From the NCBI GenBank assembly GCA_921293015.1, contig OV121081.1, positions 48,261,877-48,325,876 of the forward strand: a DNA stretch of 64,000 nt. Direction: 5' to 3'. The position numbers and the translations under genes are program-made. This document shows positions 7,773 to 62,300 of this stretch, one piece after another. Within the stretch, counting starts at the first letter, position 1. Every line of letters starts with the position of its first letter. Origin of the DNA: Phorcus lineatus (taxonomy: Eukaryota; Mollusca; Gastropoda; Trochida; Trochidae). Below the pieces are notes generated by a model. It was not told the DNA's origin. It was given only the letters and a program-made list of their open reading frames with translations, and did no database searches.

Positions 7773-8702
7773 TCAGCGCTTTGCTTTATCCACCGTAAAC
7801 ACATTGATTCTGTTCCTGTGAGACCGGGCCTGAACTTTGCGTCTGGCACGTTCCCTAAAGATCGTTCGGCAAAACACCTTCAGAAAGGCGTCTCTGAAAG
7901 GTCTATAATGCACAGCATATATGATGACATTCCACAGACTGTTGGATAAAACGAATGTCATTCCAATTTGCAGCATAACATTACTCTTTTTGTACGTTAT
8001 CATTTCGACCAATAAGGTGATAGCCAATGGCATGTAACTCAAAACGTATACAAGAGTTGATAAGTACATTGTATATGTGAATTGTGTTGCCGTACTCACA
8101 TGCCGTCCTCTAATAGATCTCGATTTTCTCAACTCCAGTCGAATTCTTATGATAAGACCAATGATGATGCAAACTGTTGCCACAGCGAAGATTCCTGAAA
8201 CAGATGCTCCCATTTTCTTACTTTGGGAAGTGAAGTAACCCAACTCTTTGTTGCAAGCCACATCGGCGTTTAAAATTGAGAGAATTATGAGTCGAATAAT
8301 ATTAAGGAGCAATCCGATCACGACTGCACAGGCGAATCTTTTTGGAGACATGATTTGGAGGTAATGTAAAGGCCAGCATACTGAAATGTACCGGTCCACA
8401 AGAGTAATTATGATGTTGATGATGTTCTGAGTAATAATGAACGCTAGCATTTTCCCTCCAATATTCCCGACAATATCCGGATATACACAGGCACCCGCAA
8501 TCTTAGACGGCACAATGAACAGCAAGAACTCCAACCCAAAAGCAAGATCCCATGCTGCCATAAATGCAATGTTCCATAACGTCGGGAGGTGGAGTTCACG
8601 AGACCTGATGATGACGATGATGACAATGCTGTTAGTGAACAACACCAGAACAGCAAAGACGGAGTTCAAAACCACGAGCAAGATGTCTAAACCTTCCATC
8701 AT
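7773..8702 (-). CDS. Class A (rhodopsin-like) G protein-coupled receptor, copy A
   Basis: An intronless 309-residue seven-helix receptor for the plasma membrane; the ligand is unknown. The N-terminus is very short, about 8 residues, with no signal peptide. Helix 1 carries N24 and helix 2 carries WNIAFMAAWDLAFG with D52. Helix 3 ends in DRY (103-105), with C72 and C150 suited to the extracellular disulfide. Helix 6 has SYMP in place of CWxP, helix 7 has NVIIY (258-262) in place of NPxxY, and helix 4 lacks the usual tryptophan. The tail is basic. It is a close paralogue of the gene at 20731-21660 and is embedded in the same duplicated block. Both copies are open, so both may be functional. It could not be placed in a named receptor family. 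Confidence 0.9.
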   Translation of the reverse strand: MMEGLDILLVVLNSVFAVLVLFTNSIVIIVIIRSRELHLPTLWNIAFMAAWDLAFGLEFLLFIVPSKIAGACVYPDIVGNIGGKMLAFIITQNIINIIITLVDRYISVCWPLHYLQIMSPKRFACAVVIGLLLNIIRLIILSILNADVACNKELGYFTSQSKKMGASVSGIFAVATVCIIIGLIIRIRLELRKSRSIRGRHVSTATQFTYTMYLSTLVYVLSYMPLAITLLVEMITYKKSNVMLQIGMTFVLSNSLWNVIIYAVHYRPFRDAFLKVFCRTIFRERARRKVQARSHRNRINVFTVDKAKR

Positions 8703-11056
8703 CCTCGTCTCTGTTTAATAAATGACCTCTTCATTCTACACGAATATATAGCTCACCCAGCCGCTTTCTGTCTTGAAGTGCTAATGAATTGGCCAATAAA
8801 ATCACAATGGGCTTACAAGGTATACTCCCCTAATAAGAATTTCCTCAAGGTGGAGGCTTCATATGTAGATTTTTCCAAGGTAAACACTTTTGGTTGGTCA
8901 TTTTTCGCGGATTTTTCGGAACAACCCAGCAGTTAAGATAGCAATGTGGATAATGTCTGAAATGACATTTCCGACTGAATTTTGTCTTACATGAACTGTG
9001 TTAGCATCGTTGGAATTAAGGTATTTTCAACGATTACAGGAACAGTTTAAATGATTCAATTATCATCGTGGCTATGTTTTGGTATAGAATATGTAGCTTA
9101 AGAAAATCAGTTGTGGTTTTTCTATATTCTAAATGCCTCTTACACATTACCAACTTATTTCCATGACTTTGTGGATCTACAAAAACATAACGACTTCTGA
9201 AGGAGATAGTTGTCACCGGACAAAGAAATGTTCCCATATCGACAGATACAAGGAAGTAGAAAATTGCTCACCTCTAATATCTTCAAATTTTGTTATTGCG
9301 TTGAGGCATTTATTTTTCAACCAATTCCGCAAAATGTAGCGGATAAACACCGTTCAGGATCGAAACCGGATGTTACAGAGACATCTCCTGTGAAAACAGT
9401 TATGCTCTGTCAACTGTAACGATAAGTTGGAAGATTGGTAACATATATGTCTCCATATGCAGATTAATTTTTGCATATGTGGATTATTTTTTACTGATTT
9501 TAAATTGTTGAAGGATAGAAAGAATGAACACAATATATTATGACGCTAAGAAATATTATTTTACTGCCAGATGCCGTTAAAAATTTCATTTTAAAGAAGA
9601 AGTGATATTTTGCCCTAAGTCATCGTCTGAAAAATAGGAACACCAATATGATTGCTCTCGTAGGTAATAATATAGTTTTTCTAAAGCGATTAATGCTATA
9701 TGGTTAGATGTTATTTGTTTCCTTATGATAGCATAACCTTTTAATGTCAAAACTTTGTATAGAATATTCTGAAATTGAGTATAGTCTCTCAGAGCTCCTT
9801 TCAAAGAGTCTGTCCTTAGTTACTTAAGGTAACCTTAGTGTGCAACGGGACCTTGGAAAAGTACATCACATTAAAAGAGCGCACAGTCGCTAAGTTACAT
9901 CATTTAAATCGTAATCATCGTTAGAGACGCTAATAGCTTGCTTTAATGCATATCCACCAGCTGTTGATGGAACTAGTTACATAGTGTGATTCTTACAGTC
10001 TCAAATCTCTATTTGATATAAAACACTTATCACATTCGTACTTAGGAATTCTCATTTAAAATATTCATTTTTGCTTTACAAGGAAATCTACAGTATGTCA
10101 AAAATTAAAGGTAATAGACAGCATACAAAAAAGTTGTGATTTTCTGTTTAGAGATTTGTAGCCTTTCTTGAGGCTAATTCCTTTCATACTGTGATATTTA
10201 TATAAGATCATGTTACTGAGTCCTGACATATATACATGTATATATGACATTGATAGGAATATATTATACATGTACATGTAGGTATGCATCTGTGAAATGG
10301 GGCTGTAAAAAAAAATACTGAAAGGGTGTAAACGTTGTCTGGTGTTGAGGAATCAAAATAAAATTCGATGGTTGATACATACTTAACATTTGGTTTATAA
10401 GGAGACTAGTGACTTGATATGATTTTGTACTAATTTAAACATGTTTTCTCTGACCACTGTTTGTTCGGGGTTTTATTGAGTATCTGACTGAGGAGAAAAA
10501 GAATAATAGAAAGCAATAATTTTGTTCAGATTGAAGGTACAGTTTCATTCAATCGATTATTGGGGAGCAAAACTAATAGAATAATGAATAAGAAATTTTC
10601 GAAATGTAAAATAGAATTATGAAATTAATCGTTATCTGTATTGAGTTATCCAATGTGTCATTCATTACAATGCTTTAAACCTCGGCACACGATAATTCAT
10701 TTCAATTCACATTTTTGAGAAAGTTTCCATAATTTGGCATTGAAAATTTTAAGATGAAAACAAACACAAATATCAATAGTCGTGCATGTCTGCCGAGTTT
10801 TAAAATGCATTTGAAATAAACAACATTCTAGTTGATTATGTCCATGATATCATATTTACGGATTAAGAATGATTAAACCTTACATAAAACTTTAAACATC
10901 CCCGCATTCAGTTTAAACGAACAGTAGCACATTTTTAAAGATAAAAAGGTGATGGCACGAAAACGTAAATAAATTGCAAGACAATGATTTTCAATCAAAA
11001 TGAGTCCTTCAACAAAATTTACCATGTTCAGTTAAGATACGGAAATCTCTCATCCA
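8703..11056. other. 5' flank of GPCR copy A and intergenic DNA
   Basis: Non-coding sequence parallel to 21661-24665 in the duplicate. A promoter is expected just above 8702 but no clear core element was assigned. The stretch at 9830-9900 has CTTAAGGTAACCTTAGTG-type words that are partly self-complementary and recur near 22715-22790. No protein-coding gene is seen. Confidence 0.5.
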
Positions 11057-20730: not shown

Positions 20731-21660
20731 TCAGAATTTAGTTTCACCAACCGTAAACACATTGATTCTCTTCCTAATAAAGTTATTCTGAACTTCGCGT
20801 CTGGCACGTTCCCTGAAGATGGTGTGGCAAAACACCTTCAGAAAGGCGTCTCTGAAAGGTCTATAATTTACAGCATATATGAAGACATTCCACAGACTGT
20901 TGGATAAAATGAATGTCATTCCAATTTGCAGCATAAGATAACTCTTTTTGTGCGTTATCATTTCAACAATTATGGTGATTGCTAATGGCACGTAGTTCAA
21001 AACGTAGACAAGAGTTGATAAGTACATTGTATATGTGAACTGTGTTGCTGGAACCTTCTGTCGTCCGCTATTTGATCGTGATTTTCTCAGCTCCAGTCGA
21101 ATTCTTATGAGGAAACCAAGGATGACGAAAACTGTTGACACAGCGAAGATTCCTGAAACAGAAGCTCCCGTTTTCTTAGTTTGGGAAGTGAAATAACCCA
21201 ACTCTTTGTTGCACGCCACATCCACGTTCACTATTGAAAGAATTATGAGTCGAATAATATTAAGGAGCAATCCGCTAGTCACTGCACAGGCGAATCTTTT
21301 TGGAGACATGATTTGGAGGTAATGTAAAGGCCAGCATACTGAAATGTACCGGTCCACAAGAGCGATTATGATGTTGATGATGTTCTGAGTAATAATGAAC
21401 GCCAGCATTTTCCCTCCAATATGCCCGACAATATCCGGATATACACAGGCACCCGCAATCTTAGACGGCACAATGAACAGCAAGAACACCAACCCAAAAG
21501 CAAGATCCCATACTCCCATAAATGCAATGTTCCATAACGTCGGGAGGTGGAGTTCACGAGACCTGATGATGACGATGATGACAATGCTGTTAGTGAACAA
21601 TACCAGAACAGCAAAGACAGAGTTCAAAACCACGAGCAAGATGTCCAAACCTTCCATCAT
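20731..21660 (-). CDS. Class A (rhodopsin-like) G protein-coupled receptor, copy B
   Basis: An intact intronless 309-residue receptor, same length as the copy at 7773-8702 with no indel needed over most of its length. Diagnostic positions are retained: N24, D52, DRY at 103-105, and the cysteine pair C72/C150. The unusual features are shared too: NVFIY in helix 7 in place of NPxxY, and no CWxP in helix 6. Differences cluster in helices 5 and 6, the third intracellular loop (RSNSGRQKVPA here against RSIRGRHVSTA) and the C-terminal tail. Helices 1-3 are nearly identical. That pattern fits a recent duplication with divergence in coupling regions, or gene conversion over the N-terminal half. Ligand and family are unknown. 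Confidence 0.9.
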   Translation of the reverse strand: MMEGLDILLVVLNSVFAVLVLFTNSIVIIVIIRSRELHLPTLWNIAFMGVWDLAFGLVFLLFIVPSKIAGACVYPDIVGHIGGKMLAFIITQNIINIIIALVDRYISVCWPLHYLQIMSPKRFACAVTSGLLLNIIRLIILSIVNVDVACNKELGYFTSQTKKTGASVSGIFAVSTVFVILGFLIRIRLELRKSRSNSGRQKVPATQFTYTMYLSTLVYVLNYVPLAITIIVEMITHKKSYLMLQIGMTFILSNSLWNVFIYAVNYRPFRDAFLKVFCHTIFRERARREVQNNFIRKRINVFTVGETKF

Positions 21661-24600
21661 CCTCGTCTCTGTTTTAGTAAATGAGGTTTTCCTTCAACAG
21701 GTATATCCGGCTCACCTTGCGGCTGTCTGTCTTGTAGCGCTAATGAATTAGCCAAGATAATCACATTCGGCCTACAAGGGATACTCCCTCTCAGAATTTC
21801 CTCCAGGTAGAGGCTACATATGTAGATTTTTCACAGGGAAACTCTTTAAGAGGTTGGCCATTTTCTTTCGGAACCAGCCGGCGGTTTAAATGGGAACGTA
21901 AATAACGTATTTATTTGTATCCAATCAAATGACATTTCCGACTGAATTATGTCTTGTATGAAGTGTGTTGGAATTAAGGTAATCCCAACGATTACAGTCA
22001 CATTTTAAATGCTCCGTTTGACAGAAGCGTGTTTCCAATACTTTCTTACCTGTGTTTTAGTATAGAATCGGTAACGTGAGAAAATGAGTGGTTGTTTTTA
22101 TAACCTAAGTACCTCTTACGTATACACAACAAAGGACAAAGGATCACTTCCACAACGACAGTTTTACAGAAGAAGTAAACCGATCACCTCTATTAAAGTT
22201 AAAATTTTGTTATTGCGAGGAGACTTATATTTTTCAACCAATGCCAAAATTGTACAGATCAGCTCTAGCCATGATATGACGTCACAACGATATTTTGCCA
22301 TACACAATGTGATTGGCTTCGTAGGTAATAGGTTTTTTTTCTTTAAAGTTCAATGCAATATGGTTAGCTTTATTTGTATATTTTAAAGTTTACCTTTTAA
22401 TACCAATAATTTGTATTGAATATTCTGATATTGAACATAGTCTCCCATAGCCAAAAAGTGTTGGTGTTATTATCAGATCTTTTGTTCGATAATAACTCAG
22501 GAAATTCGTCTGAACAAAACTGAGAAATCTTTCCAAATCATCACCGTTGGCGCTCCGTCACAAACTTGAATGCAGAAAACGAAGTCTGATAATGATGAAA
22601 ATTACTAAACAGAAAATAAATGGTGTAATCACCAAACAATGTTAACATGTCAAATCCAACGTTTCGCCAACAAGACTAATTGGATACCCTCGGTTTCGTT
22701 GCTCAGATCACTAAGGTAACCTTAATCCACTAAGTCAGTCTTAGTGCATTGCTACAAAATTGCACTAGGCTAACTTAGTGTTTAGTTGAAGTTGCTTTGT
22801 GCCACGACCCCCAGGATGTAAGGGCAAGTAAGCGCGTTTATTTCTGAAATGTGCAGCATATGTACCAGTATGGGAATGAACTTACAGTTGAGAGTATCAA
22901 GAGGAAAGAAACATACAGAGTGATACCTGACCGGATAGATGTACCCTTATCATGTACCTCTTGATTAACAGATATTCTTCTACAAACAACCCAATGTTGC
23001 ATTTTACTTTTTTGTAATTTTTTAATCAATATAATTTTTAAGTTTATGTTTGTAAAAGAAACTGAAGTTTGTCAATGTCACCTTTAATGAAGATTTAATC
23101 TTCGTAAATATCATCTTGAATCAAGACTGAATGTTTGTAGACATCATCTTTAATCCAGAATAAATGTTTTGTAAATATCACTTTCAATTCAGATGAAATA
23201 TTTTTGACATGAGAGCACATTTACTGGTCATGGAAGTCGCTTGGTAACGCTGTCTTTCAAATTACTAATCATCGTGTCGTTGGAGGCTATGGTAGCCGTT
23301 AAAAAGCTTGCTTTAATGTACATCAACTGTCTGTTGAGAGAAGTAGTGAGATAGTGTCATTACAGTCTCATCTCTCTTTTTTATATAAAATTTATGTCAC
23401 CGAATTGCTTATCACATGCGTACGTTAAAAGTTTAATCTCTTATCATGAGAACATTCAATCAAAATATTCATATTTGCTTTACAAGGAAATCAACAGTAT
23501 GTCAACAGTTAAAGGTAAAAGACAGCACACAAAAAAGTTTGTGATTCTTCGTTTAGAGATGTATTTCTTTGTTCATACCATTCCCCCCCTGTTCTATAAT
23601 GTTCTATCGCTCTACTGAGTCATGAGTCCCTTCACATGCATATGAAATTGATAGTTAGATCATTTTCATACCAGCTAGTGCTTCTGTGAAATATGGCCGT
23701 GAAAAAAAATACGGAAAGGGTGTAAACGGTTGTCCGGTGTAGAGTAATGAAAATAACATGTGATGGTTAAAACAGATTTAGTTAAAATTTAGTTAATAAG
23801 GAGATATGATAATTATGATTTTCTTTTAGTGTAAACATTTTTTCACATTTTTGTCACAGTATTGTTGAGGGGTGTTATGAGTATTCAAAAGAGGATACAG
23901 AGAACAGTTTAATTCTGTTTCAGATTGAAAGTACAGTTTCAATCAAACGGTTATTGGGGAGCATTATTATAAGAATAATGATTTATAAGAAAAAATACCA
24001 AAGTGTAAAATAGAACAAAGAAATCAAGTGCAGTTATCTGTCAAATGTGTCAGTCAAAGACTCATTACAATGCACTAAACCTCGGCACAAAATAATAATT
24101 TTTAAAGGGAGGGAAGCGTCGACCGTCTTTAGATAAATAAAATGATCTAAAGTGATCGAATCAATTTCCTTACCTCAAATAATTAAAAGGTGTTCCCATA
24201 AAAATGGCCGAACATGTTTTTTGATCTTTGAAGGTTTTCTCTAGAACGACGGATAATCTGGTTGATAAGTGAGATGTTCTGACCCTCTGAAGACATTTAG
24301 AAACATGTAATGTTCACTGGGGAGCATTTGAAGAATAAATCTTTTCAATATGAAGTATGTATCAAATTCTTGAGCAAGTTTCATAATTTGGTAATAGACT
24401 GTTTGACATTTTAAATGAACAAACAACATTTCAGTTGATGAAATTAATGATATCATATTTACTGATTACGGTTTAACTAACTTTACATAAGACGTTAAGA
24501 ACATCCATCAGTTTAAACGGACAGTAGCACATTTTTTTAAAGGTAAATAAAGTGATTGCACGAAAACGTGAATAAATTGAACGGTTTTTTAATCAAAACG

Positions 24601-38424: not shown

Positions 38425-41400
38425 ATGACAGCGAAACAAGCCTATAACCAACAGGTAAGAGTTTTCAGCCACAGTCCTTTACATTTATGTGTAGCCTCGA
38501 CTGTTTTCTGTTTTAAAAAATGCGTGTTATTGGTTAAAATGGTTCTTTTAAGAAGTGCTTTTGACATCTGCGTTGTGAATCTAATAATTTTATTCAATAA
38601 CTGTAAATCACATTTGTAATTTGAGACATTTCATATCTTATCATGATTACATAACTTCCACTTGATATACTATAAAATATTTTGATACCTAAATTCGATC
38701 AAGTTCAATTACTTGCATTCTTGAACTTGAATTCGTAAAATTATATAGGTATATCCAACTTTCGTAATTGAAATCCTTTATTTCAAATACATGTACAACG
38801 AGCTATTCAAAAGCCGTGTCGACTTTGGACCAGAACAGAATGGTGCTATTTGTGATCATGCTTTCAACTTTAATGTTGTACATGTATCGATGGGAAATAG
38901 CTATCACCTCAAACCAACCTGCTAACTTTCATAACTGAAGGCATATCTGCTTCTATTTATTAATCATAATACATACTTTTCCAATCTTAATTTCCTGTAA
39001 TGATATGACAAACTATACATATTTGTTCCAATAACTATTTTGAAAATCACTTTTTTACTAACAGCTAAAGAAGATTATTGCATAAGTTAAATGGTATATT
39101 TGACTTTTAAAGCGAGGATGCACCCACAATAGAAATGGGACTCATCGCTATTGTATATTTATTAAAAGGGTTTGAGGAGGTTTTGATATGTATATGTATC
39201 ATGTTATGTAACTTTATTGTTCCAAAATCATTTTGAATTATGTTCATTAATTTTTTGCTTTTGAACCTACTTGGGCATTTTAGTATTGTCCATTACCAAA
39301 AGTCATTAGAATATATAAATCCGTCTCTTTATTGCTGTTTTTATTGATTGGCGATAATGCGGCATTTACCAAGTAACAGTAGTACAATCGAGTTAATCAC
39401 AATTTACAGAAATATGGCTTGGTCCCGTTCCATATATCTGACTATCCGCCACCCTCGCCCTCTTCACATGAAATTGATCAGGAACATGAACGAAGGATAT
39501 TCAAGAAAGTGGACGAAGGCATTGGGGAGGTAAGCAACGTTAATTAGTCAAAATAACTAAACATAGAAGTTAATTAAGCCAACTGTAAATAACAGCAAAT
39601 GTAGTCAGATAACAACGACGACAATTTGTCAGATAAAATTATTTCATTTTCCATAGCTGATTGTTAGCATATTAGCACATTACTATTATCTATTTGTTAA
39701 AACGTCCTAATGTTCTTTTTGTTTTCAATCCATCAGTCACTATATGAACGCTTATTATTTATATGTTATCTCAAAACATTTAACTTTATAATTTTGGGTT
39801 CGGTGTTCGATGTGAATATATAACTTTGTGATAAGCGTTCAATAAATAGATTTATAATTTGCAGAAGACGAATCTTGAATTGGTTAGTCCTATTTCGCAA
39901 AATGAAATATAATTGTCAATTGGAGGTTGATAAAAAAATTGCTGACGAAAGAAGATATTAATTTTATAATACTGAATAATGATAATTAATAACAATAATT
40001 CATTGAATAATATAAGATTAAGAAATCCATTATTTTTTTCTGCAAAGTTCTGCCAATTGTTTAAAGGTTCCAAACGAAAAGCTGAATGATTTTATCGACC
40101 TGGTTGACCATCTCACGAAGCACCTGACCACTGATACAAAGAAGGTCCGAGCATTGTTTACCTGGCTAGGCAGACAGAATGTGCAGGACATGAACTTTCC
40201 TACAAACACCGACCAAAACACACCTGTCGGCTACCTGAAGCGTTTGCAAGACGATACGTCATTATATGCCTTCTTCTTTGCTTTGATGTGCAGGTAAGTA
40301 TTCGGCTTTTACAATTGAACATTCTATGCACCTTTATGTAGGTAAACATCGTTGATGTTGTACACGTGAAACCATTCCGTTCTTTGCTTTGCTTTGACCC
40401 TTTATACTCGTCTGTGCATGTAAGCATTGTTTGCTGGTCTTTGCATGTAAGCATTATCTGCTTGTTTGTGTATGTAGGCATTATTTGCTGGTCTTTGCAT
40501 GTAAGCATTATTTGCTGGTCTTTTCATTTAAGCATTATATGTTTGTCTGTGCTTTTAATCACTATTTGCTGGTCTGTGCATGTAAGCATTATTTTCTTGT
40601 CTGTGCATGTAAGCAATATTTGCATGTCTGTGCATGTAAGCATTACTTGCTGGTCTGTGCAGGTTAAAATTCGTTGCATTTCATTGCAAGTAAGCATTCT
40701 TTACTTGAATGAAGAGGTCAATATTATTTGCTCTTCCGCGTATGTAAGCATTCGTTGTTCGTCTGTGCAAGTTAACATTCCTTGCATTTTGTTGCACGTA
40801 ACTTTCGTTGATCGACTTAACAGGTTAACAGTATATGTTCCCCTGCTGTTTCCTGTGCAGGTAAACAATCCTTGCGCTTTTGCTATATTAAGCACTCTAT
40901 GTCATCGTGTTATAGTAAGCATGCCTTGCTCTTCCTTTTCAACATGCGGTATTAGGTATTGAACAACTTAATTGATCCTTTTGTTTTGGTTGTTAGTTCG
41001 ACAATTTACCAGAATGAAAATATTTCTTTGACAAAAGCCTTTCTGAACAGTAAATAACTTCATTTAGCTGTTTTCATAAAACGTATTACAATTCACTTCG
41101 CAAACGTCGCAATAGACTAACAAACCAAAGCAAAATTCATTATTAAAAACAATTCTTCTTAATACACGTGAGGAGCCTCAGAGAAATGGACTTGCCTTTC
41201 AAGAGGGAATGTTTCAGACTAGGAGAATTTAAGGTTAACATATTGTGTAGAAGAGACTGCGAGTTAGATTACCGCCGCTAGTGCAAATATTTTTCAAAAA
41301 CTCGTTCTCTTTAAAATGGAAATATCAAATAGACACTTTTTAAATAAACATGATATATTACAGTTGCTCGTGTTATTTTCAATAATATAACATGTAATGT

Positions 41401-44400
41401 TGCCACTGCAGGGAGGCTGACGTCCCGTGTGTCATCCTACAAGGCCACTCAAAGGCAGGAGACTACGAGGTGGGCGACAAGGACAGCAGATTCACACTCT
41501 GGAATGCCGTGTACGTTGAGGAGGGATGGAGGTTGGTTCACTGTAATTGGGCGTTCGTCTCTGTGGTCCGGCACCACACCATTGGGTGGCTGAAAGTGGA
41601 GGAAAACGGTCAACAGATGAGGGTCGCAAAAAATAAAAAGGACAAAGAAGAACCAAATCACGAACTGTTGGTTGATGACAATTACTTCTTCATAAGTCCA
41701 AAAGTACTTTCATTGCTTTGCCTACCCGAAGATGGAAAATGGCAACTGCTGAAGCCCGAAATTTCAAAAGAAAGATTCTTCGATTCTCCTTTCATCACGC
41801 CACTTTTCTACCGATGTGGTTTTACATTCAAACGTGGTCAAAGTGGTATTCTGAACGCCAACCATGGGGACAGTTCTGTTGAAATCGTCTCCCCTGCTTC
41901 GTGGAAAGGTACTCTGAAGTACATGTTATTCTATAAGAAAAATATGGCCCATAGATTCCCTAACTGTGATAAAACTGACAGGTATGTAGCCATGTTGAAT
42001 AAGAACGATAAGAATGAAATTAAATTCATCGTTCGATTTCCAATGGAAGGTGACTACATCCTCAGGCTATACCAAAGCAAAGACCAAGTGTATACCAGAC
42101 TATGTGACTTCAAGTTCATCTGCGATGAACGAAAACAGAATTGTCAGCCCTTCCCTAATCCCCCTTTGATTGGATGGGGCCCAGGAAGAGAAAGCCTGGA
42201 GGCGGAACTCTATCAGTTTTCTCATATGAATGGCCTTATAGAACTCCAAGGACAACAGAAACAGAAAATGGGGATCTCCTTCCGGTTCAAAGGTGACCAA
42301 AGGATTACAGCCTCTTTAAAACATACCATTCGTCCTCAGGAAGCCATAAAGGATTTTCTGGCAGTGAGCGTTGTGAAGGATATAGTGAGAATCAGAGTTG
42401 ACCCAGATTTAGGGGAGTTTGCCCTGGTGATCAACTCAAGTGTTCATGGATTAGGGGAAAGAAATGTACTTAACTACATCATTCAGTGCGGACAATCCAG
42501 GGGGAAAATTGATATCCACCGCGAGGTATGATAACGGTCAACAATTTATTACTCAACTATTTACTCTTAAACTCTACACTGCACATTGCCAAGGCGATAT
42601 AATCCTTAGGTAAGATCAAATTAAAAATCCTCATGTTTGGAACTGTGTGTCTCTCCCTCTTAGTTCAAAGCAGAGTGAATTCATTCAGAATTGAAATGGT
42701 GTAGGACAGGTTTTAAGACGAAAGTCATCAAATTATTCTATTATATATCCTTTTTGAAAACATCAGTATTATAAGGTAATTGAAAGTGTATTTTGTTTAA
42801 CAGAATGCATTACAAAGGAAGTTCAGAAGACAGCATAGTGAAGCAACATCGTTAAGTAAGATGAATGGCTTGAAGAACTCTATACCTCAGTATAGCAAAC
42901 TTGGAGTGGAAGACAACCAGCAAGAAGATCAGGATTATCTAAAGGCAAAGGATGGTAAGTCATTTTTCAATCCTCGGAATTTATCATTTGTTGTAGTGTG
43001 TGCCTTTTTGTATGAAATAAATCTATAGGATTTTAAATTTTTGTAGTAAATTTTCATTCGGAAGTCGTATTCAACAAACCCATAATTTAGAGAAAAAGAA
43101 GATAGTTGTACAAAGATGACCTTCAAATATTATTTCAGACTTGTAAAATGGAACGTATTCACAAAGGGGCCCTTATTGTTTAAAGATTTCATACTTTAGA
43201 AGTTTAGATTCAAAATTAACATAGATACGTCACTTCTATTCAGGACTTAAAGAAGTAATACACACACATCGAGTTGACGAACTGGAAAAGGCTACACAAC
43301 AGGATAGTAAATCCCAAAATAAGTGGCAGGGCGAGGTCGAAAGAGCAGGGAAGCTGATTGAGTCCCATCGAAAAGGAAATACTCCGAGAACAATTGTCAA
43401 AACCAGGACACCCTCCTCGCTCGTAACGCCAAGGGCACCTTCCTCGCTCCAATCATGTAGGGCACCTTCCTCGATCTTTTCGACCAACGTCAAATCGGAC
43501 CAACCAACCAGAAGTACCAAGTTGACCCCGAAGGACATGACCGCATTACGGATCTTGCGGAACCTCGTCAAACCTGTGAAAGAGATTATGACAGCAACGT
43601 TTCTGTTGTTAGGCGAGAATCGTTGGAAGTTGCAGGTGAGTGTTTATGTTAACGATAATCCAACTTCCCCCGCAAGTCATAACTGGCGCCAGTTCCCATC
43701 ACTAGCTCATGAAAACCTTGCTGCTTAGTGTCAATGTTCGTGGTTTCAGTTCAGTACCCTCTTTAGTTTTAAGTCAAACCTCATCAAGTACTAAAAGGAC
43801 TATGACATCCACCGACAAAGTTGATAGATGATAGTTAAGGAAATGATGCAAGGTCTTCGTAAATTTTCAGTTACCATAGCATGAATTCGTTTTGCTTTGG
43901 AAGTTAATGGAATTCTTACATAGTGAAATACTTTATATTTGCGAGATTATGGTCCGTATCAAATGGAACTATATATGAAAACAAAGTGTCTTGGATGGAT
44001 TCCCCGGTTGTTGATTTTATTAGCCTACTGACATTTTTTATTCATTTCAACAAATGTACTTTTTAAACGAGAAGGATTATCATATCGATAGCCTTTAACT
44101 TAAAGAGAGAGAGCCAATCCTTGATTTTTGTGCACACTGTTTGGCAATGCTACTAGTCTGAATGCCATAAAGGTGAATTACGTTTATAAAATTTTAATTA
44201 TTATTCTTTAAATGGCAAACATAATTTTTTGTTACAATTTTTATCATTTAATTCTAAAAATAGCACAGAAGCAGAACTGACATATCCACTTTACATGGAT
44301 ACAAGTTATTAAACCACAAACGCTAACAACTTGTAACTGTCCTCCTGTCTTCACACGATCAGTTTCCGATATTACGTTTGACTAATTGATGTGCGCCATT

Positions 44401-46337
44401 ATCCGGTTTTCTATCATATCCTTATATTATACCTCCAAAATGTCACTCAATAAAACCGATTACATTAAATTGATACTTTTCAGCAATAGACGCTTCTCGA
44501 TCATTTGACAACATTAAACCGCCACTCTGTGATTTTCATAATATATTATTTACCTTTGATACGAACTTAAATGTCATATGTAGTGATATAAAATCAAAAC
44601 ATCTAACTTTTCATGTCCAAAAGTCATATGTATGACAAATACCGTTTTTTCCATAAAAATCCAAAAACAGCCTTATAAATGCACAGTGGTGTAGATATCA
44701 CATCCAATATACATGAATACTAGTTATATAACCTAACAAACACTATCAACTCCTAACTGCCCTTCGGGCTGTTTTAGATAAGTCTCCAAAATTGCGTTTG
44801 ACTATTTGACGCCCGCCACTGTCCGGTTTTCGATCATAATTGCAACATTCTGCCTTCATATTGTCACTGTAAAAAACAAACAAGCTTTAAAATGTGTCTT
44901 TTTGGTTACAGTCGATACTTCGCGATCAAATGACACCATTGATTAAGTTTGGCATATATGACTCCAAGAACTCTCGGAGTGGCATCTACGTTTTGTGCAC
45001 TTGGCATCCGACAGCCACAGTACAGCGCCAGTTTAAGCAAGGTTTCATCATAACATTTTCTTAGTGAAAAGCAAGGAACCAGCATTATCCATCCAGCGTA
45101 TTTTAGTGGGGTTTTATCCCAGGGGTATATGAGTGGAGCGAAAGCGTACACCTTTTACCATGAGATGGGATGCTTTCCATTTTCAACATACTTTGTTTAG
45201 ATGCGGCCGAGAATCGAACTCGGCCTACGGAGTGTTGAGCGGACGCTCTACCAACTAAGTAACATCGTTTTTTAATTCCACCTTAAACCAAATTTGAAAC
45301 CTTATCTTGACAATTTTTTGGTCCTTGATTAAATACGACAGTTTTTCCAATTGTTAATTTCAGGACAACAACCATCTGATGAGTTTAGTGAAGCAATCTG
45401 GTAAGGATGACTTGTTGTATCGGCTCCGCCATTTCGATCCTAGCCAGGTGAAATCATCAGTTGTCATTGATGCACGTAAACTCCTTGAACAACAGGAGGA
45501 GGAGAAGCTCATGGTGATATCCCATTCCGTCTGGAAACTCTACAAGGAGGTGAGATTTGCAAGATCGTCTTTCATGATAACAGACGTGATTTTGAAATCG
45601 TTTCCAGCGAGATTCGAACCCGATACCTCCGAGTGAGAGTCAGACACTCTATAGATTCAGTCAATGAAATCCCACCATCTTGTCGAAGCCAGTAGGAATG
45701 TTTTTAGTCGCAGTGATGTTGATTAGTGTCTGATTCTTGACATATTACAAGAATTCATTAAGATCCTTAATGTCTATCCTCCATAAAAATGGTAATCGTT
45801 CAAATAATTTCCTTGGAGGAGGATCCTGGAATATTTACCCTGGATTTTCGAGGATGCACAGTGCCGTGCCTTTAAAGCTGTGGAAAACTCAAAAGGCTTT
45901 TTCAATGTTTTTTTTAAATAGACAAGTAAGAAGATAACTGCGTTTTCAAAAGAAGTCGGTTTCATGAGTCACTTTTCAAAACAATCAAATCGTAGTCATT
46001 CCTCAAAAATATATATGGAGTTCCGAAAAATGTATTTGTTTTAAGAATTAGGGTGCATTATTGCGATATTGTATGTCATAAAATATAAATTCTTTTCAAT
46101 TTTTGTTGTAACTCAAAATATTTCCAACGAATTATGATTTAGATGGTGCTTCAAATCCCCCAAAGGTAGTATGTTGATTACTTCTGTGGCACTGAAGACA
46201 ACGGTTAACTATCTCTCTTTACCTTTCAGGGTTTGGATCTGGTCGAGAAATGTTCCACCGGCGTGTCTACACGCCCATATTCAAAGAAAAGCCAGGTGTC
46301 AGCTGATAGTGGGCTGGATGCAGGCAGTTTAAGCTAA
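38425..46337 (+). CDS. KY/hillarin-like transglutaminase-fold pseudoenzyme with dynein-stalk-like C-terminus
   Basis: Eight exons keep one frame: 38425-38454, 39410-39529, 40067-40293, 41412-42525, 42804-42954, 43244-43635, 45364-45549 and 46230-46337 (TAA). They encode 775 residues. All junctions are AG/GT; the exon 3 acceptor (AAAG) is the weakest. Residues 75-175 form the transglutaminase-like core, with GHSKAGDYEVG, LWNAVYVEEGWRLV and NWAF. The expected Cys, His and Asp read as T114, T154 and H169, so peptidase or transglutaminase activity is unlikely. The KY-type Ig-like region continues to about 497, with GWGPGRES near the middle. A linker with a TPR/SS-rich stretch precedes residues 647-740, where ALRILRNLVKPVKEIM, LLLGENRW, LLYRLRHFDPSQV and SVWKLYKE match the dynein heavy-chain microtubule-binding domain pattern. 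KY and hillarin proteins act at muscle or cortical cytoskeleton; a structural role is inferred. Confidence 0.85.
40390..40930. repeat. 27-bp tandem array containing 5' splice-site-like sequence
   Basis: The unit is close to TGTGCATGTAAGCATTATTTG plus CTGGTC. GT positions at 40420, 40447, 40474, 40501, 40582, 40609, 40636, 40690 and 40744 keep exact 27-bp spacing, with diverged units between and after, to about 40915. The array starts about 125 bp past the exon 3 donor (40294), whose sequence TGATGTGCAGGTAAGTATT resembles the unit. The 198-codon open frame through it follows from the unit being a multiple of three. Confidence 0.93.
44511..44985 (-). mobile_element. Diverged MITE copy in a KY-like gene intron
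   Basis: In reverse orientation it matches 29589-30067: CAATGGTGTCATTTGATCGCGA, AACGCAATTTTGGAGACTTA and CATATGACATTTAAGTTCGT occur in order. The end near 44515 keeps TTAAACCGCCACTCTGTGA. The other end near 44985 (CTCGGAGTGGCATCTA) has lost the TTAA. It lies in the intron between exons 6 and 7. Confidence 0.8.
44990..45265 (-). mobile_element. tRNA-derived retroposon fragment
   Basis: The minus strand 45262-45197 reads TTAGTTGGTAGAGCG, an AAC anticodon-like loop and CCGAGTTCGATTCTCGG, a near-perfect T arm. The acceptor stem pairs only in part. The downstream body abuts the MITE at 44985. It looks like a valine-tRNA-like SINE head rather than a functional tRNA. Confidence 0.6.
45600..45680 (-). 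mobile_element. tRNA-like fragment downstream of exon 7
   Basis: The minus strand has GGGTTCGAATCTCG as a B-box-like core and a GACTCTCACTCGG anticodon-like arm, with a weak D arm. It is probably the head of a retroposon. It lies about 50 bases after the exon 7 donor. Confidence 0.5.
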
Positions 46338-53377: not shown

Positions 53378-56300
53378 TCATTTGACTGTTGACCAAGTTG
53401 CTTCAATACTATTTTTCTTCGAAAGTTCCTTCTCTTCACTACGCAGTTGCCTCCAGAAGCTTCCAATTGTTTTCAGTTCTTCTGACCCCACAGACTGCCA
53501 AGCAATGAGTTCAGTTTCATTGGCTGAATTTGTCTGGACAGCAGTCACTACAAGATCTCCACCTTCTGACATCATGTACACAGGTCCAGATTTAGGTGGA
53601 CAGTTGTCCAATCTTATAGCAGAGAGTCTATCCAAGGTTGTTACTTTCATTCTTGGCTTGTCATCTTTGAAACTGACAAGGACAATGGTTCCTTTGCTGG
53701 TTCCAATCCAAAGGGTATCCTTCACAATTAACATTGATGTGACTTTGGTTGAAGATTTCTTGACAGGAGGCTCGACTGGAGGCCTTATGTCGGGAGGTCT
53801 TAAGCCTGGTCTGACTGCTGTTGACAGATTTGTGGTTCGATTTTGTTTAACTGATCCATGTATTGTTATTCTTCTTGGTGGCAAAACTGGAGGGTCTTCA
53901 AGAGTGCCAGTAGATAAACTATCCATTCCTGTTCCATGTGATGTTGATCGACTAATGGAAGACATATCTCTTCTTGGTGGAACCGGAGGAGGAGTGTCTG
54001 GTCCTTTAACTGAAGATGATTGGGAAACCTCAGTCTTCCCTCTTTCAGGAAATCTGAATATAGTTTTGGCTCTGACTGTAGACATTGGTCTTGGTGGAAG
54101 AGGAGGAACACTGTCTATCAAATCTCCTGGTAAAGACATACTGCCAGCAGATTTCCTGCCAGGAAGGGGAGGAGGACTCAAAGAATCCTTACGCGGTTTC
54201 TTTAATTTCTCAGGCCTTGGAGGAGGACAAGTTGTTTCTTTTCCACCAAACTCAACCGGTTCATAATCATTTGAAGGTGCTATAGGACTTGTAGATGATG
54301 ATAGTCCAACTGGTTCTTCATAGTGCCGCTCATCAGATGAACCCCTAGAAGACGTTTCTTCAATCCTCTCAGTAGTTAATGGCTGACTGGTAGGACATCT
54401 TTTCCTTCGTTCAACCACTGGTTCAGACAAGAGAGAGAGATATTCATTTCTACCTGTTTCATCTGACAGGCTTCTGCTACTCTTTGCTGGTACAGGTGGT
54501 GGTCTGGTTGGAACTTGAGGCTCTTCTTCTGAGTCTGACTTAAAATCTGAATCAAACGACTCATCATCAAAAGAGAATGATTTGAACTCGTCACTTCCTA
54601 CATCAAGGCAATGGGTGACTGTTCTTGTCTCTCCATTGAACTCAATTATCTTGGAGGAGTTTCTGAAGGAACACCAGACTTTGGTGCCATGGCTGACCAT
54701 TTGTTGAAGAATCATGCTCTTCTTTAGTTTCCGAGCAATGTTGAGATCCTTAATATTGATACTGTCCTCTTTCAGAAGTGTTTGTGTGCAAACAATCAGC
54801 ACTGTATGTCCACAGCCAACCCAAAGCTCAGTGTCATCAATAGCCAAAGTCATTGCTGTCACTGGTGTATCAGAAAATGTCAAAGTCTTTGCGAGTCTCC
54901 ATGATTTGTTGAGTTTCCTCATAAGGGGCTGATGGGAGAAGATGGTCAAAGTTCCATTGTCAAGACCAACAAAAACATGCCCCAACTGTTCCTCTTCATT
55001 GTCACTCTGAAATGGAAATGACTAGGCCTGAATAAACATTAAAAAAGAAGGATACAAAAATTCCAGCCTATGTTGTAACTAATGTATGTCCATCACCAGC
55101 TTATTTAAGCCTCGCTGCAATGAATGATGACAAAAAGCAATATCTAGGCTATTTCTGATTGTACCATAAAGTTCAGCTGCAGTAGGCAGAAGAGCAAGCA
55201 CAGAAACATTGACAAAATGCAACAAGTCTTAGAATAGCAAGAGATGGAGACTAGCTTGATTTATGCCTTGCAGGGAAAACTGAAGGATTCCAAATCATTG
55301 TATTATATTAACAGTTAAGAAAAAAAATTCATTGGATCTGATGACCTACTCTAGGCCTCATAACATTCAGGGGAAATTGATGGAAAGATAGTTACTTACC
55401 AGCTTAAGGAAGACTATGATAGTAGGTAGAGCAGTGAGAGACAGGGACTCCTTGCACTGGGGAACTCCAACACTGTGACATCCAAACACCTCTATTTTTT
55501 TGTTCTGGGAGAAGATGTTTGACAAGTGTAAAAAAAGAAATTTAAAAAATAGTGAGCCCAATTGTAAAATGTAGTCAACATAAAGGAAAATATGAAAACA
55601 TTGAGTTTTGTTTTAGATCAGTTCATACAGATACTTATCGGGGTTGATTCACAAAACTGGACCAAATATTGGTGAACATATAAAACATATGAGGAGGGGA
55701 ATATTTCCTGAAATAAAACCATGGTCTTTTATTTCCTAAAGTACTCCTTTACCTCTTGATCCTATACAAAGTTGGCAAGTCAGATTTATATCTGCATTTC
55801 ATTTCGTAAGATAGGGATGGGATGGATTCAACATTTGTCTTTATAATGTTATTTTATGTTATTTTAATGATTTTGATGGTGCTCCATCTATCTGAATATC
55901 TACACCTTGTTTTTGAAGTCATTGAATTATTTGTAGCCCACAAGAAGGAAATCCATTCAGGCAGTAAGAAGATTGTAGGAACTCACAAAAATGAGGCAAA
56001 TCCAGTGATGGCAATGAGCGAAATGTTGAAACATGATAAACATAGCCTGATGGAGCAGTCTGACTGTGACTGTTGTTAACTCTATATTTAACTGTTAATC
56101 TGTCCTACTGTTGTACTCACCATGGTGCCGACCCACATGTATTTGCCCACTTTGAGCATACACTTGACATCTGCTCCAGGACAGCAGTTGCGGAACACAT
56201 GGAAGGAAGCAGTGTCCAGGTTGTATATGGAGTAGCAACGTTCCCTATCCTCGTTCCCGGACTCCCACATCCATAGCTGCTGTCTCAAGCTGCTACCCCA

Positions 56301-59300
56301 GTCAGTCTGCAAGACATTGGATGAACTTCACTGATTTCAATAGAACAAACAACTGCTAATGGCTAGTACTGGAATTATTCCTTAGGAGATAAATCCATTC
56401 GTTTTTTTTATTTTGGGGTTGTATGTCGTGCATTTTTCACACCAAAATTAAAGTTCAAACCGAGAATGCGAGGTTAAAAATGTTTATTTAGGGGTGAAAA
56501 ATGCACGATATACAACCCAAAAATAAAAAATAGAATGGATTTATCTCCATTCTAACATGACTAATTAGAAAAATAATGAGGAACTAATTTGCCTTGCACA
56601 ACAACAATGTGATTAGGTCGAACCAGTACAGACCAGTTCCACTTGCTTTCGAAACTACGGTACAGTTCCATTTTCAAAGAACACGCTTCAATAAAAAAAA
56701 AGTTTTAAAAAATTAAACCAACAGGTTTTTAAAATAGAACCCCTTAAGTATTTATTTCGTTGACGATAATATCAACAAAAGACAGATTTTTTATCCCGTC
56801 AGAGATACGTTTTTTCACATAAATTATACAAAGGTCACCTATCATCCCTACAATACCGATAAGTAGTTGTTTACTGCTAGCGCTAACTCCTCACGCAACA
56901 AGTGAACTGATTGAATGAACGATCAAGAAAGCTGTATAGTTTGTCATGGTTGAATACACTCTCTGGAACTTCACTTATGAATGAGAGGGGGAAAAGGGAA
57001 GCAGTTTGTAAAGTTGAAGAATAACGTTCGTCTCATCTGTTCGCTTGACGAATCGCTATTGCCGCGCGTTACGGTACGAAGCGAGCTCGGTTTGAAATTA
57101 AATTTAGTGATAAAAGAATAAACTACTTTGACAAAAAATAAACCACATAATGGATTTATCTTCTAAATTTCATAAAAAATACAGTATTCTCATTGTATGA
57201 TTAGAATTGATTTAAAAGTTATTTTGCTGTTGTCTAAGGCGATGAGAACAGTAAGTTCAGCGAATGGAGTTTGTAAATGTGCGCATATGAATGTGAATCG
57301 GTCGTAAATATTTAGAGGTTATTACTAGCGAAATAATCACTCCAAAATTGATTTTGGTAACCAAACAGAAAGCAGTATTTTCATTCTAGTTTTCGTGTCA
57401 TGTTAGAATTCACATTTGAGAACATTTGAACAATGGAGTTTGTAAACGTGCGCATATGAATGTGAATCGGTCGTAAATATTTAGAGGTGATTATTAGCGA
57501 AATAATCACTCCAAAATTGATTTTGGTAACCAATCAGAAAGCAGTATTTTCATTCTAGTTTTCGTGTCATGTTAGAATTCACATTTGAGAACATTTGAAC
57601 AATGGAGTTTGTAAACGTGCGCATATGAATGTGAATCGGTCTTAAATATTTAGAGGTGATTATTAGCAAAATAATCACTCCAAAATTGATTTTGGTAACC
57701 AATCAGAAAGCAGTATTTTCATTCTAGTTTTCGTGTCATGTTAGAATTCACATTTGAGAACCTTTTAGTAGTCTATGAGTAGCCATTGTTTTCCCTAGAC
57801 CTTTAAAATCATGACTGTGCATATTTATATGCCTACAGATATCCATGATTGAAAGCATTCTCACTATATATATATAATATTACATGTATATAACCCTTTT
57901 ATAACAACATCTGACTGTTTCATCAGATCAAGGTTCATATTCTTCTCACATGCACTAGGGCAAAATACTTCTCTTCATTGCAATGCCACAACAGTTTGGC
58001 TACGAAATGTTTTTAAGCCGGACCTCATTTGCTTAATTGAATGTTGTTTTTTATTATTTTCATTCATCTCACCAGTTTAGGAATACAGAGAAGATCTCAT
58101 TGATGCTCATGACATATCCTCTTTATGACAGTAGGCAAATACTATGGACCTAAACGGATGAGGTATGGACCTAAAAGGTCGGGCAAAGCGCTTCATGGGC
58201 TGCATCGAAGTACTATTCCCTCAGGGTAATAATACAATTTGTGCGCTTTGAGCATGCTCTGTCATGGATATATATGAGCATTACAAGAAAGCTATTAGTA
58301 TTATTATCTCAAATACTAATATTTAGGCACTCATAGTATATTAATGACACTCATATAATATCATTTAATGATACTTACCTCACAAATGAGCGAGATAGAG
58401 GTAACATCAGAGAAAGCAACCCCTCCTTCAGGGACGGTCAGCGCCTCGTGCTGACACACAAACTGGAAGTGTCTCATATACTGGCAGATCTTCTCCGTGG
58501 TCGGGCGCTTGTGGGCGTCATGCTCCCAGCAGACTCTCATCAGATGTTCCAGATAGGGGAAGTGGCTCACTATCTGGAAGTCCTGCAGGGATAGAGCAGT
58601 GTTAAACATTAGTGCTGCAAGAAGGATACAATAAAGAAAAAAGTAAACATTGCTCATATACCAATGTACGAGGGGTGTGCCAAAAATTTCATTCTGGGGA
58701 CCAAGCGTGCTGATACCTTTTTCATATGTAAATGTTCATGTATAATTTGTTCAACTGATGTTTTACTGATGTAGCGAGTATCAGCTAAGTATCTGATAGT
58801 CACTCGCCTGTCCTGCATTATTGTGTCAACAGCCTCAGTGTTTTCACCTATGGTGACATCAGATGGACGACCAGGACGGTGCTCGTCTTTAGTGCTTACT
58901 CTACCCCATTTAAATTCAGCACACCAATGTTTAATGGTGCCATATGAAAGAGCAGAGTCACCTAATGTTTGTAACATATCCCCATGAATTTCCTTTGGAG
59001 TGTATTTGTTTAAACTCAGATATTTGATAACAGCCCTACATTCACTTTTCTCCATTTCGGTAAAAGATGTGAGGGTACCTTCGAATGACAGGCTATTATA
59101 TGCAATTGAAGGGTAAGCAACTCGTGATTTTCATGCCATTTACACGTCAGTGACTTCAGGTTCTTCATGCACGCACAGTATGGTTGCGGCATGTTTTCAT
59201 ATTCAGGGCGGATACTTTTGGGACAACCTTCGTAATATGCTATCTGCCAAGATCAGTAGGGGAGGCGGGGTAGGTTGGGACATCAAATATTTCTATTGAT

Positions 59301-62300
59301 TCCAAATAAGGAGAAAGAAACTATTATAACCACATGAAGTGTTATGAGAATATGAGTGTGTGCAATGTTACTCTGTTCATGGTTCATAAACTGGAATATG
59401 TAGGTCAGCTTTTTCTAGAAAGTTCTCTTCTGGAAAGTTCTTTCCTTTCCATGTATTTCTTGTTTCCCTGATGTTTCTAGATAGGAAGTTTCTGGAAATC
59501 TTGTGATCTATATATAAAGGCTAGCAATTTGAGAGCCCTCACCTGTTTTTTCAATAATTGACTTTGAGATCATTCTGCTGGGCCATTGCTCTCAAACTTT
59601 TGGAAACTGTTTACAATCTGATTTATCAAGGAATTTCCATTAAGGACAGTGCTCAATCCATCAGTACTACTTCATCAAGATTTGGTGAATATCACTTTTT
59701 TAAGCTAGCCTTTTGACCCATTTGAGATGAGGTGGAGTGTATTAGGGTTACCAGCATCTCAAATTTCAGTTCGCCTACATGCAACAGTCCATGAAAAAAA
59801 CTTTCCCCTTCCCCATTGGAGCATGATACCCCCCCCTTTCTAATTGAAATATAGTTCTACCTTAATGTTGGGTCTCTTCCTCTCCTTGACCACCGCCTGA
59901 ATGATCTGCATCATGTTGATGTACTCCTCGTAAGGCACGTGACCACACAAGACCTCGTGAACCAGCATGGAGAAGGAGAAGATGTCAACCTGCAAACATG
60001 GTTATGGTTATGATAATAATAAGAACAACAATAATAGTAATAATTATAATACTAAAAACAACAACAAAAATAATAATAATGATGATGATAATAACATAAT
60101 CAACAATGATAATGATGATGATGATGATGATAATGATGATGATGATGATGATTCTGATTCTGATGATTCTGATGATTACGATGATTCTGATGATGATGAT
60201 GATGAGAGCATGACATGAACGCTGAGAAGAATGAATTTTCACCTCTATTGGTTTTAAGACAGATAGGAAAAGATATCTTCTGCCAGAAAGAAGCTTAACA
60301 AATTCAAAATGTAACACATGATCCAACAAATCTTTAGGAATAATTTCAAAATGTTTTTTTCATGAAGATATAAGAGTTCGATTTGTAAACTAAATTCCTG
60401 CTATTTTTCCTGCAACAATTTTTTTAAAGGGAGATATTTCCACCAAAGACAAATAACAACATCAGAAAGAAAAAGCAGCTCCAAGATTTGCAAAAGATAA
60501 CCAACTCTGTAACCCCCTTTGTAACAGTAGCACATGTACGGAAAGATGGAAAAAACTTTTGGACTGACAACAGCAACACAAAATCCTACTGCTAATGCTT
60601 GCAGGCTTTAAAAAGATAAATTAATTATCATAAATCTAAAGTGACTTCACTGGAGAAAGATATTGTTTTACCTGTTCGGTATATGTCTGCCTGTTGAGTA
60701 TTTCTGGCGCCATATATCCTGGAGTTCCAACAAAGCCACTGAGGCCTTGTGTTGTAGAGAACTTGGAGATGCCATAGTCAGAGAGTTTTACATTGACTGA
60801 TTCCTCCACATCCAGAGTACACACAAGGACATTATCAGACTTCAGGTCTCGGTATGTGATGCCGTTCTCGTGGAGGTACTGCAAGCCTTTTGCAACCTGA
60901 CAAAAATATATTGTTATTAAGACAAACTAAATTATTAAGTAATTTACAGAACTTTCTAACAAGATTTTCACAGATACCATTGGAAAATATACTTCTCTGT
61001 GTGAAGACTGTTGCCCAAAAAAATCCTTACAATAAAGCGAAAATCGTATTATTTTATATCTTTATACAAGTCTTCCTGAAAACTAGCATATAGCTAGGTT
61101 TGTTCTTCCATATGTTGCCTTTTGATTTTAGACATTCTAACCCCAAAAATTTATCAACAACTGTCTTATATTGTCTGGGCATATCAAACCATTTTGATAA
61201 TTTATTAGAAACTATGATAATGATGCCTGCTTTTATGGACACAAAACCTATACATTTTGGTCTATTGCAATTAACTTAAAATTTCAATGTTAAACATGAA
61301 CAATTTAAGTTTGGATCTGATCCAGCATTGAAATTATTTCTGAATTTATCTATGATTCAGTTTACGTGTGTAAAGGTCACAACTATGCATTGGTTTTCAA
61401 TAACATAAAATTCACATATGACATGATATGATTGACACATCTATAAATGAATAACATAACATCAAATTTTTATGATCCAAGGGAGATAATAAAGTTTATG
61501 TGTGGATACAAGATTAGAAAACTGAAATGTTTAAACTATCAGTTGGTATGTTCTTTAGATGGAAACATTGCAAATAATCTTGTCCATTTTGCATTCACTG
61601 CCTACAGAAGCAAACATTGAATCTTGTATGAAAGAGTTTTAAATTCTATGTCAAGATATTTTATGCAATTTGTAAAATTAAATGGCAGATCAAGTGGTTC
61701 AGGAACATTAAACAAACCCCTTTTTAATAATTCAACCCCCCTCTCCTTGAAAATCCTGGATCTGTGATTGAAATTAAACCTCATTTTGAAAGACTTAGGG
61801 AGCTCTTTGGGAGCATATTATATATAAAGATGACACAGAATTAATGTGAATTTGAAATGACGAAACCTGGTAAACAATCTTGAAGGTGAGATATTTGTTG
61901 AACACAGTTCCAAATGTCTTTAACTGGTCCGTGAACTTGTTGAACTTCCTGTCTTTTGTGGCATCATTCAGCACATCCCTCAAGGAACCAAGGGGAGCTA
62001 ACTCCATCACTATGTATAGTTCCGGGTGGACACACAGACCAATGAAGGATATTATACATGGATGACGCAGTTTACTGAGAACAGCCACTTCTTTGCGGAC
62101 ATCAGAGAAAGCTTTGTATGCCTGAAATGAAGAAGCGATATGAATTCGGCTTGAACATGTCGGCACCCTCGAACCAGGCTTAATTTTTTCAAGACTATAA
62201 GATTTTGAAAATTCAAATCTTTTTCTTTCATGAAGTATAATAAAAATGAAAGAAATATTTTCATTTCAACCAAAGATTAACCTACACTTCTGTTTTAGGA

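Follow-up and report, generated by a model that had tools for sequence, protein, structure and literature searches.

The stretch of Phorcus lineatus DNA analysed here, 64,000 nucleotides long and hereafter called the window (assembly GCA_921293015.1, contig OV121081.1, positions 48,261,877 to 48,325,876), contains two related genes of the KY/hillarin family, paralogue 1 (p1; window positions 673-2139) and gene 2 (p2; 38425-46337), whose C-termini, judged by sequence profiles and modelled folds, are almost certainly homologous to the microtubule-binding domain (MTBD; Pfam family MT) of the dynein heavy chain. Studies of the dynein MTBD usually treat it as a motor's switchable end, and the KY/hillarin family is a poorly understood family of muscle or cytoskeletal type. 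Such a microtubule grip without a motor in about twenty KY copies suggests reuse as a passive cytoskeletal anchor.

The homology is seen at the level of the family. Profile-profile alignment of 19 copies of the domain (18 after filtering by the program) with 12 dynein MTBDs covered 99 columns at a probability of 98.5 and P 3.7e-15, against a best P of 0.028 among 60 column-shuffled control profiles, so that the relation to dynein MT proposed in a preliminary description of this DNA is borne out. A profile of 18 copies, searched against 177,635 distinct PDB sequences, returned 68 matches at E up to 10; dynein heavy chains (E 1.8e-9 to 0.19) fill the top 58 of the best 60 of these, and the first non-dynein protein is lamin-B1 at E 0.33. 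Some of the dynein rows are vaguely labelled ('AAA+ ATPase domain-containing protein') and also match dynein MTBD queries, as does a 4583-residue row evidently misassigned as 'Radial spoke head protein 9 homolog'. In the reverse direction, a hidden Markov model (HMM) of 16 copies, from which the two window copies and the copy on contig C12 were left out, finds 10 of the 12 dyneins at 19.8-37.2 bits, scores that come without a shuffle control. When six of the 19 copies were scanned against all 24,736 Pfam families, MT was the top match for three (E 8.2e-4, 1.4e-3 and 0.02), and the best score, 18.9 bits, did not reach the curated cut-off of PF12777 (24 bits); because every copy scanned falls below it, the domain would escape routine annotation.

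The two window copies are more diverged. Against an HMM of the 12 dynein MTBDs, whose sequences were taken from PDB search output, p1 scores 15.9 bits, the gene 2 C-terminus 15.7 and the full 775 residues of gene 2 13.6, with the aligned part running from helix H1 to about H4/H5. None of 3000 shuffled sequences reaches the real scores (best 11.2, 8.9 and 7.0 bits respectively) and the reversed sequences of p1 and the gene 2 C-terminus score -0.3 and -0.4 bits; the ordered dynein match claimed for both genes thus exceeds every shuffled and reversed control. A profile of the two copies matches the dynein profile with probability 81.6 and P 1.1e-5. Pfam, searched with the window copies up to E 10, does not list MT (the filters remove most matches whose E exceeds about 0.1), and a phmmer search of PDB with p1 returns Nup188 (E 1.4) as its sole match and no dynein. 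Because neither search returns dynein, single window copies do not reveal the MTBD relation, and the HMM evidence from these copies is by itself suggestive. One weak Pfam match of p1, to EAP30 (0.14), was rejected.

Models of p1 and gene 2 show the helix order of the MTBD, with dynein MTBDs as the best structural match; the six-helix arrangement expected of the domain is therefore present in the predicted folds, H1 at low confidence. In Foldseek searches the top three rows for gene 2 are dynein MTBDs (E 0.46-0.84), and among the best 50 rows for p1, dynein ranks 24th by E (2.4) but first by probability (0.60). Some observations count against the overall reading: H1 is modelled at low confidence in both copies (predicted local distance difference test score about 56-72 in gene 2), Foldseek gives no match at E <=0.001 for either model, MT is not listed for three of the six copies scanned against Pfam, and with the reverse HMM DNAH12 and DNAH7 reach just 7.6 and 4.8 bits.

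The residues by which the preliminary description had recognised the domain fare unevenly. The pattern L-x-x-L-x-x-F-[DN]-x-x-[QN]-V is found in both genes, and the E-L-R-x-F turn in p1 but not in gene 2, which reads A-L-R-I-L. The supposed coil-end motif P-x-V-x4-A-x-x-L actually reads P-x-V-x2-A-x3-L in p1 and was placed too early, the HMM aligning the dynein A-L..L segment about 20 residues later (p1 residue 53). The W of LLGENRW does not correspond to the dynein W: other copies carry the conserved W at the second position of exon 7, which in gene 2 is occupied by N; similarly, the W and Y of SVWKLYKE sit 5 and 2 columns ahead of the dynein H6 W, where gene 2 has E. The domain is real, even though several of the residues from which it was first recognised fit the motif by coincidence.

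The gene models and coordinates given earlier for gene 2 (exons 43244-43635 and 45364-45549, domain end within 46230-46337) and for the paralogue at 673-2139 are upheld, and comprise the following features:

38425-46337, plus strand: gene 2, KY-type, predicted; eight exons joined in frame, 775 residues, GT-AG at 7/7 introns
38425-38454, 39410-39529, 40067-40293 and 41412-42525, plus strand: gene 2 exons 1-4
42804-42954, 43244-43635, 45364-45549 and 46230-46337, plus strand: gene 2 exons 5-8
40100-41532, plus strand: gene 2 Transglut_core region, residues 62-166, exons 3-4 (Pfam E 4.6e-05; exon alignment)
41770-42156, plus strand: gene 2 KY Ig-like domain, residues 246-374 (Pfam PF23265, E 7.3e-25; whole-genome search agrees on the place)
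43528-43635, plus strand: gene 2 MTBD-like domain, exon 6 part, H1 and H2, residues 643-678 (dynein HMM, model helices)
45364-45549, plus strand: gene 2 MTBD-like domain, exon 7, H3 to most of H6, residues 679-740 (dynein HMM, model helices)
46230-46256, plus strand: gene 2 end of H6, residues 741-749 (exon join, model helices)
673-953, plus strand: p1 exon for H1-H2 of the MTBD-like domain and the helices upstream of them; the acceptor AG has its last base at 672
1343-1525, plus strand: p1 exon, H3 to most of H6
2035-2139, plus strand: p1 last exon, end of H6, short tail and stop

Gene 2 belongs to the KY/hillarin family by its Transglut_core match (24.1 bits, cut-off 23) followed by Ig-like_KY (88 bits, cut-off 27). 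Pfam gives no third family, consistent with the earlier view of a KY/transglutaminase fold without an AAA+ motor, and neither an AAA+ ring nor the full CC1-CC2 stalk of a whole dynein heavy chain is found in its 775 residues by Pfam and the exon model. The stop codon lies 26 residues past H6, with no CC2 return strand, and the paralogues have an exon homologous to exon 7. The window holds the 3' end of the p1 gene, and the KY Ig-like exon of that gene is found just outside, to the left (C1:48259823-48260206); the p1 and gene 2 C-termini are 34% identical over 146 columns. Within the p1 gene, 1207-1342 is a partial tandem duplicate of the start of its exon 7, acceptor site included: the 15-mer at 1207 is identical to that at 1343 and the duplicate then runs into intron-like sequence, so that this is a small decayed duplication.

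Across the 958 Mb genome, 61 Ig-like_KY matches were merged by us into 33 loci, 20 of which, on contigs C1, C5, C12 and C29, are followed within 8 kb, on the same strand, by an MT exon. This tally draws on 28 MT places compiled by hand from genome searches and window coordinates, and three of the 20 loci (C12:35.38, C1:54.21 and C5:55.00 Mb) count on weak MT matches, with E no better than 0.08-0.13. The earlier statement that two neighbouring genes share the architecture is correct but understates its spread. A 'no MT' label is weaker than an 'MT' label because the searches miss diverged copies, a query with L051 having skipped the window's two. Better-preserved domains occur in the exons 3' of other KY genes, for example EIRSYSNPPAVVHTVMTATLLIIG with DWKAVQALVGKTG...RVKALLNKYELDEVRDVSAGAATFFVW in the next exon. 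Nineteen copies were spliced, and 18 form alignment A2, L058 being omitted as a near-copy of L057; no part of A2 was sufficiently conserved to serve as a query against viral contigs. Donors, where seen, share a common frame and lie at two fixed places across the copies, one residue ahead of the conserved H3 W and directly after the conserved H6 W (Q in L052; E in p1, p2 and C12). All 19 exceed the best of 6000 shuffles (10.4 bits; the first 12 copies shuffled) against the dynein HMM, from 12.8 bits (C12) through 16.1-16.3 (window copies) to 46.3 in C1_4820, which, like C5_21, is a well-conserved paralogue.

Other MT matches stand apart from this pattern. One copy, at C1:48187171-48187446 (E 1.9e-4), reads through the usual intron place with two stops and is perhaps an intron-less pseudogene. 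Strong, spliced matches without a listed Pfam Ig-like_KY neighbour occur at C5:21674492-21678267 and C1:48208173-48209129, and others at E 0.02-0.11 at C9:30869111, C9:20428579, C15:45076216 and C1:50527052; these are either diverged KY genes or MT domains in other proteins.

The transglutaminase-like part of gene 2 lacks an active transglutaminase/peptidase triad, its Cys, His and Asp being replaced by T, T and H (as judged by eye in phmmer alignments covering exons 3 and 4). Among the MT-bearing copies with exons inspected in the same way, none has the catalytic Cys or His, and only the one at C5:26.82 Mb retains the Asp. The idea that an inactive transglutaminase is confined to MT copies was dropped, as some non-MT copies also lack triad residues and C5:26.82 Mb keeps its Asp. 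Among non-MT copies, L012 and L014 keep His and Asp, and C32_43743 has a C-D-G-Y motif. Without its catalytic residues, the transglutaminase-like part of the copies examined most likely acts jointly with the KY Ig-like domain as a scaffold.

According to earlier work reported in the available text of PMC6629372, H1, H3 and H6 contact the microtubule; the same text places K3299 next to β-tubulin D427, regards the MTBD as always primed to bind, and links H1 movement to stalk registry. Y3308 and P3311 are kept in 16 of the 19 copies and S3384 in 17; the W ahead of H3 is present in 16 and the H6 W in 15 (counted by eye). Other observations argue against retained binding. The K3299 column is K or R in only five of the 19 and holds N and P in the window copies, where column 3298 is likewise non-basic (the numbering of both columns on the copies is ours); p1, p2 and C12 no longer have the proline after H1 or either of the conserved tryptophans; in both window genes, as in the candidate last exon of L052, H6 is not followed by a CC2; and a search of four other copies gave no convincing last exon, the remaining copies not having been searched for one. 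With contact residues partly conserved, microtubule binding is a prediction from sequence: at least some paralogues may well bind microtubules or tubulin, and for the window's own two copies this is rather doubtful.

On balance, the domain, a true MTBD homologue detached from the motor, probably docks on microtubules as a passive linker on a KY scaffold. By sequence and predicted fold, a subfamily of KY proteins carries the MTBD without its AAA+ motor; the transglutaminase-like part and KY Ig-like domain would form a largely pseudo-enzymatic scaffold, a role that the data show in part and that is otherwise presumed; the MTBD-like head would dock on the microtubule lattice, and the KY part would connect this head with further components of the cytoskeleton, filamin or septin for example. 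Binding would not be ATP-driven, because the window genes have neither motor nor CC2 and hence no stalk registry shift; a passive docking domain is inferred because CC2 is missing from these genes and the catalytic residues are replaced. In the text available for each, filamin C is aberrantly localised in KY deficiency (PMC6078408), and leech hillarin localises to the axon hillock and acts through septins (PMC3081291); a link between microtubules and filamin or septin partners is hypothesised. Less probable than docking, and to be taken seriously, is that the true MTBD homologue now serves as a protein-protein interaction module off microtubules, at least in the diverged window copies: the retention of Y3308, P3311, both tryptophans and S3384 in most copies speaks against this, but these are largely fold positions.

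Passive docking by a KY protein presupposes that KY and MT exons belong together, and the MT domain is very probably part of the KY gene. That the MT exons are instead separate genes beside KY genes, the fused protein being a splicing artefact, is very improbable: predicted gene fusions can be annotation artefacts (PMC12964723), and the fact that KY-MT splicing is predicted from genomic sequence alone counts against a union, but at 20 of 33 KY loci (three weak) MT exons follow the KY gene on its own strand at no more than 8 kb, and gene 2 is in frame through all exons. The ratios of non-synonymous to synonymous substitution (dN/dS) are 0.033/0.117 for L057/L058, 0.308/1.45 for p1/C12 and 0.6/1.868 for C5_26/C5_21, dS being computable in three of five pairs and saturated in the other two. 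Because of these ratios, the recurrence across loci and the gene 2 read-through, we take the KY and MT exons, as predicted to be spliced, to form a single constrained protein. Convergent or chance likeness of a small helical bundle is scarcely credible, given dyneins alone in the top 58 of the best 60 PDB profile matches and the failure of all reversed, shuffled and column-shuffled controls.

In a tree of 28 KY loci (C13_9603 was dropped for want of a match, and the MT labels of C12_35382 and C1_54212 rest on weak matches), 16 of 19 MT rows fall in one group with support 94/91, and one branch (92/88) unites the window pair with C12 and C1_48231, the gene of L052. The 'MT' label changes three times, with a shuffled mean of 7.8 and 0 of 500 shuffles as low, near-copies favouring such clustering; a single origin of the union is neither shown nor excluded. 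Two dynein genes, on C32 (DNAH2-like, by eye) and C2, share no intron place with the KY genes, and since their introns differ in place they give no direct sign of exon shuffling. It is an evenly poised proposition that the dynein stalk head is a mobile module, joined in this lineage to a pseudo-transglutaminase KY scaffold when the family was young and spread over about twenty genes as motorless, ATP-independent linkers that might join microtubules to structures built on filamin or septin.

Elsewhere in the window, two very similar single-exon open reading frames for seven-transmembrane receptors lie about 12 kb apart on the minus strand between the two KY genes (7773-8714 and 20731-21693; Pfam 7tm_1, E 6.8e-15 and 1e-13). 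Also on the minus strand are an LRRK2-type beta-propeller (53378-55021, E 8e-16) and a kinase-domain fragment (61795-62265, E 4e-09), which may be pieces of one LRRK2/ROCO-like gene, and a mobile-element remnant with a Mos1-type transposase helix-turn-helix reading frame (58654-59130; HTH_48, E 8.4e-06).

The KY half and the MTBD half are each known already, and their union was not found in the literature searched, nor was any description of a KY/hillarin protein with a dynein MTBD, most subscription journals lying outside that search. In the available text of PMC10318531, KY is treated as Transglut_core with no mention of an MTBD, and in that of PMC5549309 the Pfam term 'microtubule-binding stalk of dynein motor' is listed in gills and not linked to KY. 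A structural precedent for an MTBD-like fold in an entry not named dynein is chain 7jtk_C of the Chlamydomonas radial spoke 1, which differs in being absent from the best 60 of the 68 matches of the PDB sequence search; we know of no KY part in it. With the dynein MTBD itself (PF12777; PDB 3err, 5ayh, 6rzb, 6rza) the copies share the helix order, significant profile similarity, the hydrophobic pattern of H1 followed by Y/F and P, the A-x-x-x-L-G stretch of H2, the W ahead of H3, the F-D turn and the S and W of H6, whereas the window genes lack the AAA+ ring and CC2, end just past H6 and fall under the Pfam cut-off. With the KY/hillarin family, gene 2 shares both Transglut_core and Ig-like_KY (PF23265) by Pfam, but differs in its C-terminal MTBD-like domain and in the replaced catalytic Cys and His of the MT copies seen (by eye). 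If true, a motor-free MTBD in the KY family would be a natural experiment on the stalk head alone, and the MTBD-like domain gives the KY/hillarin family a testable link to microtubules.

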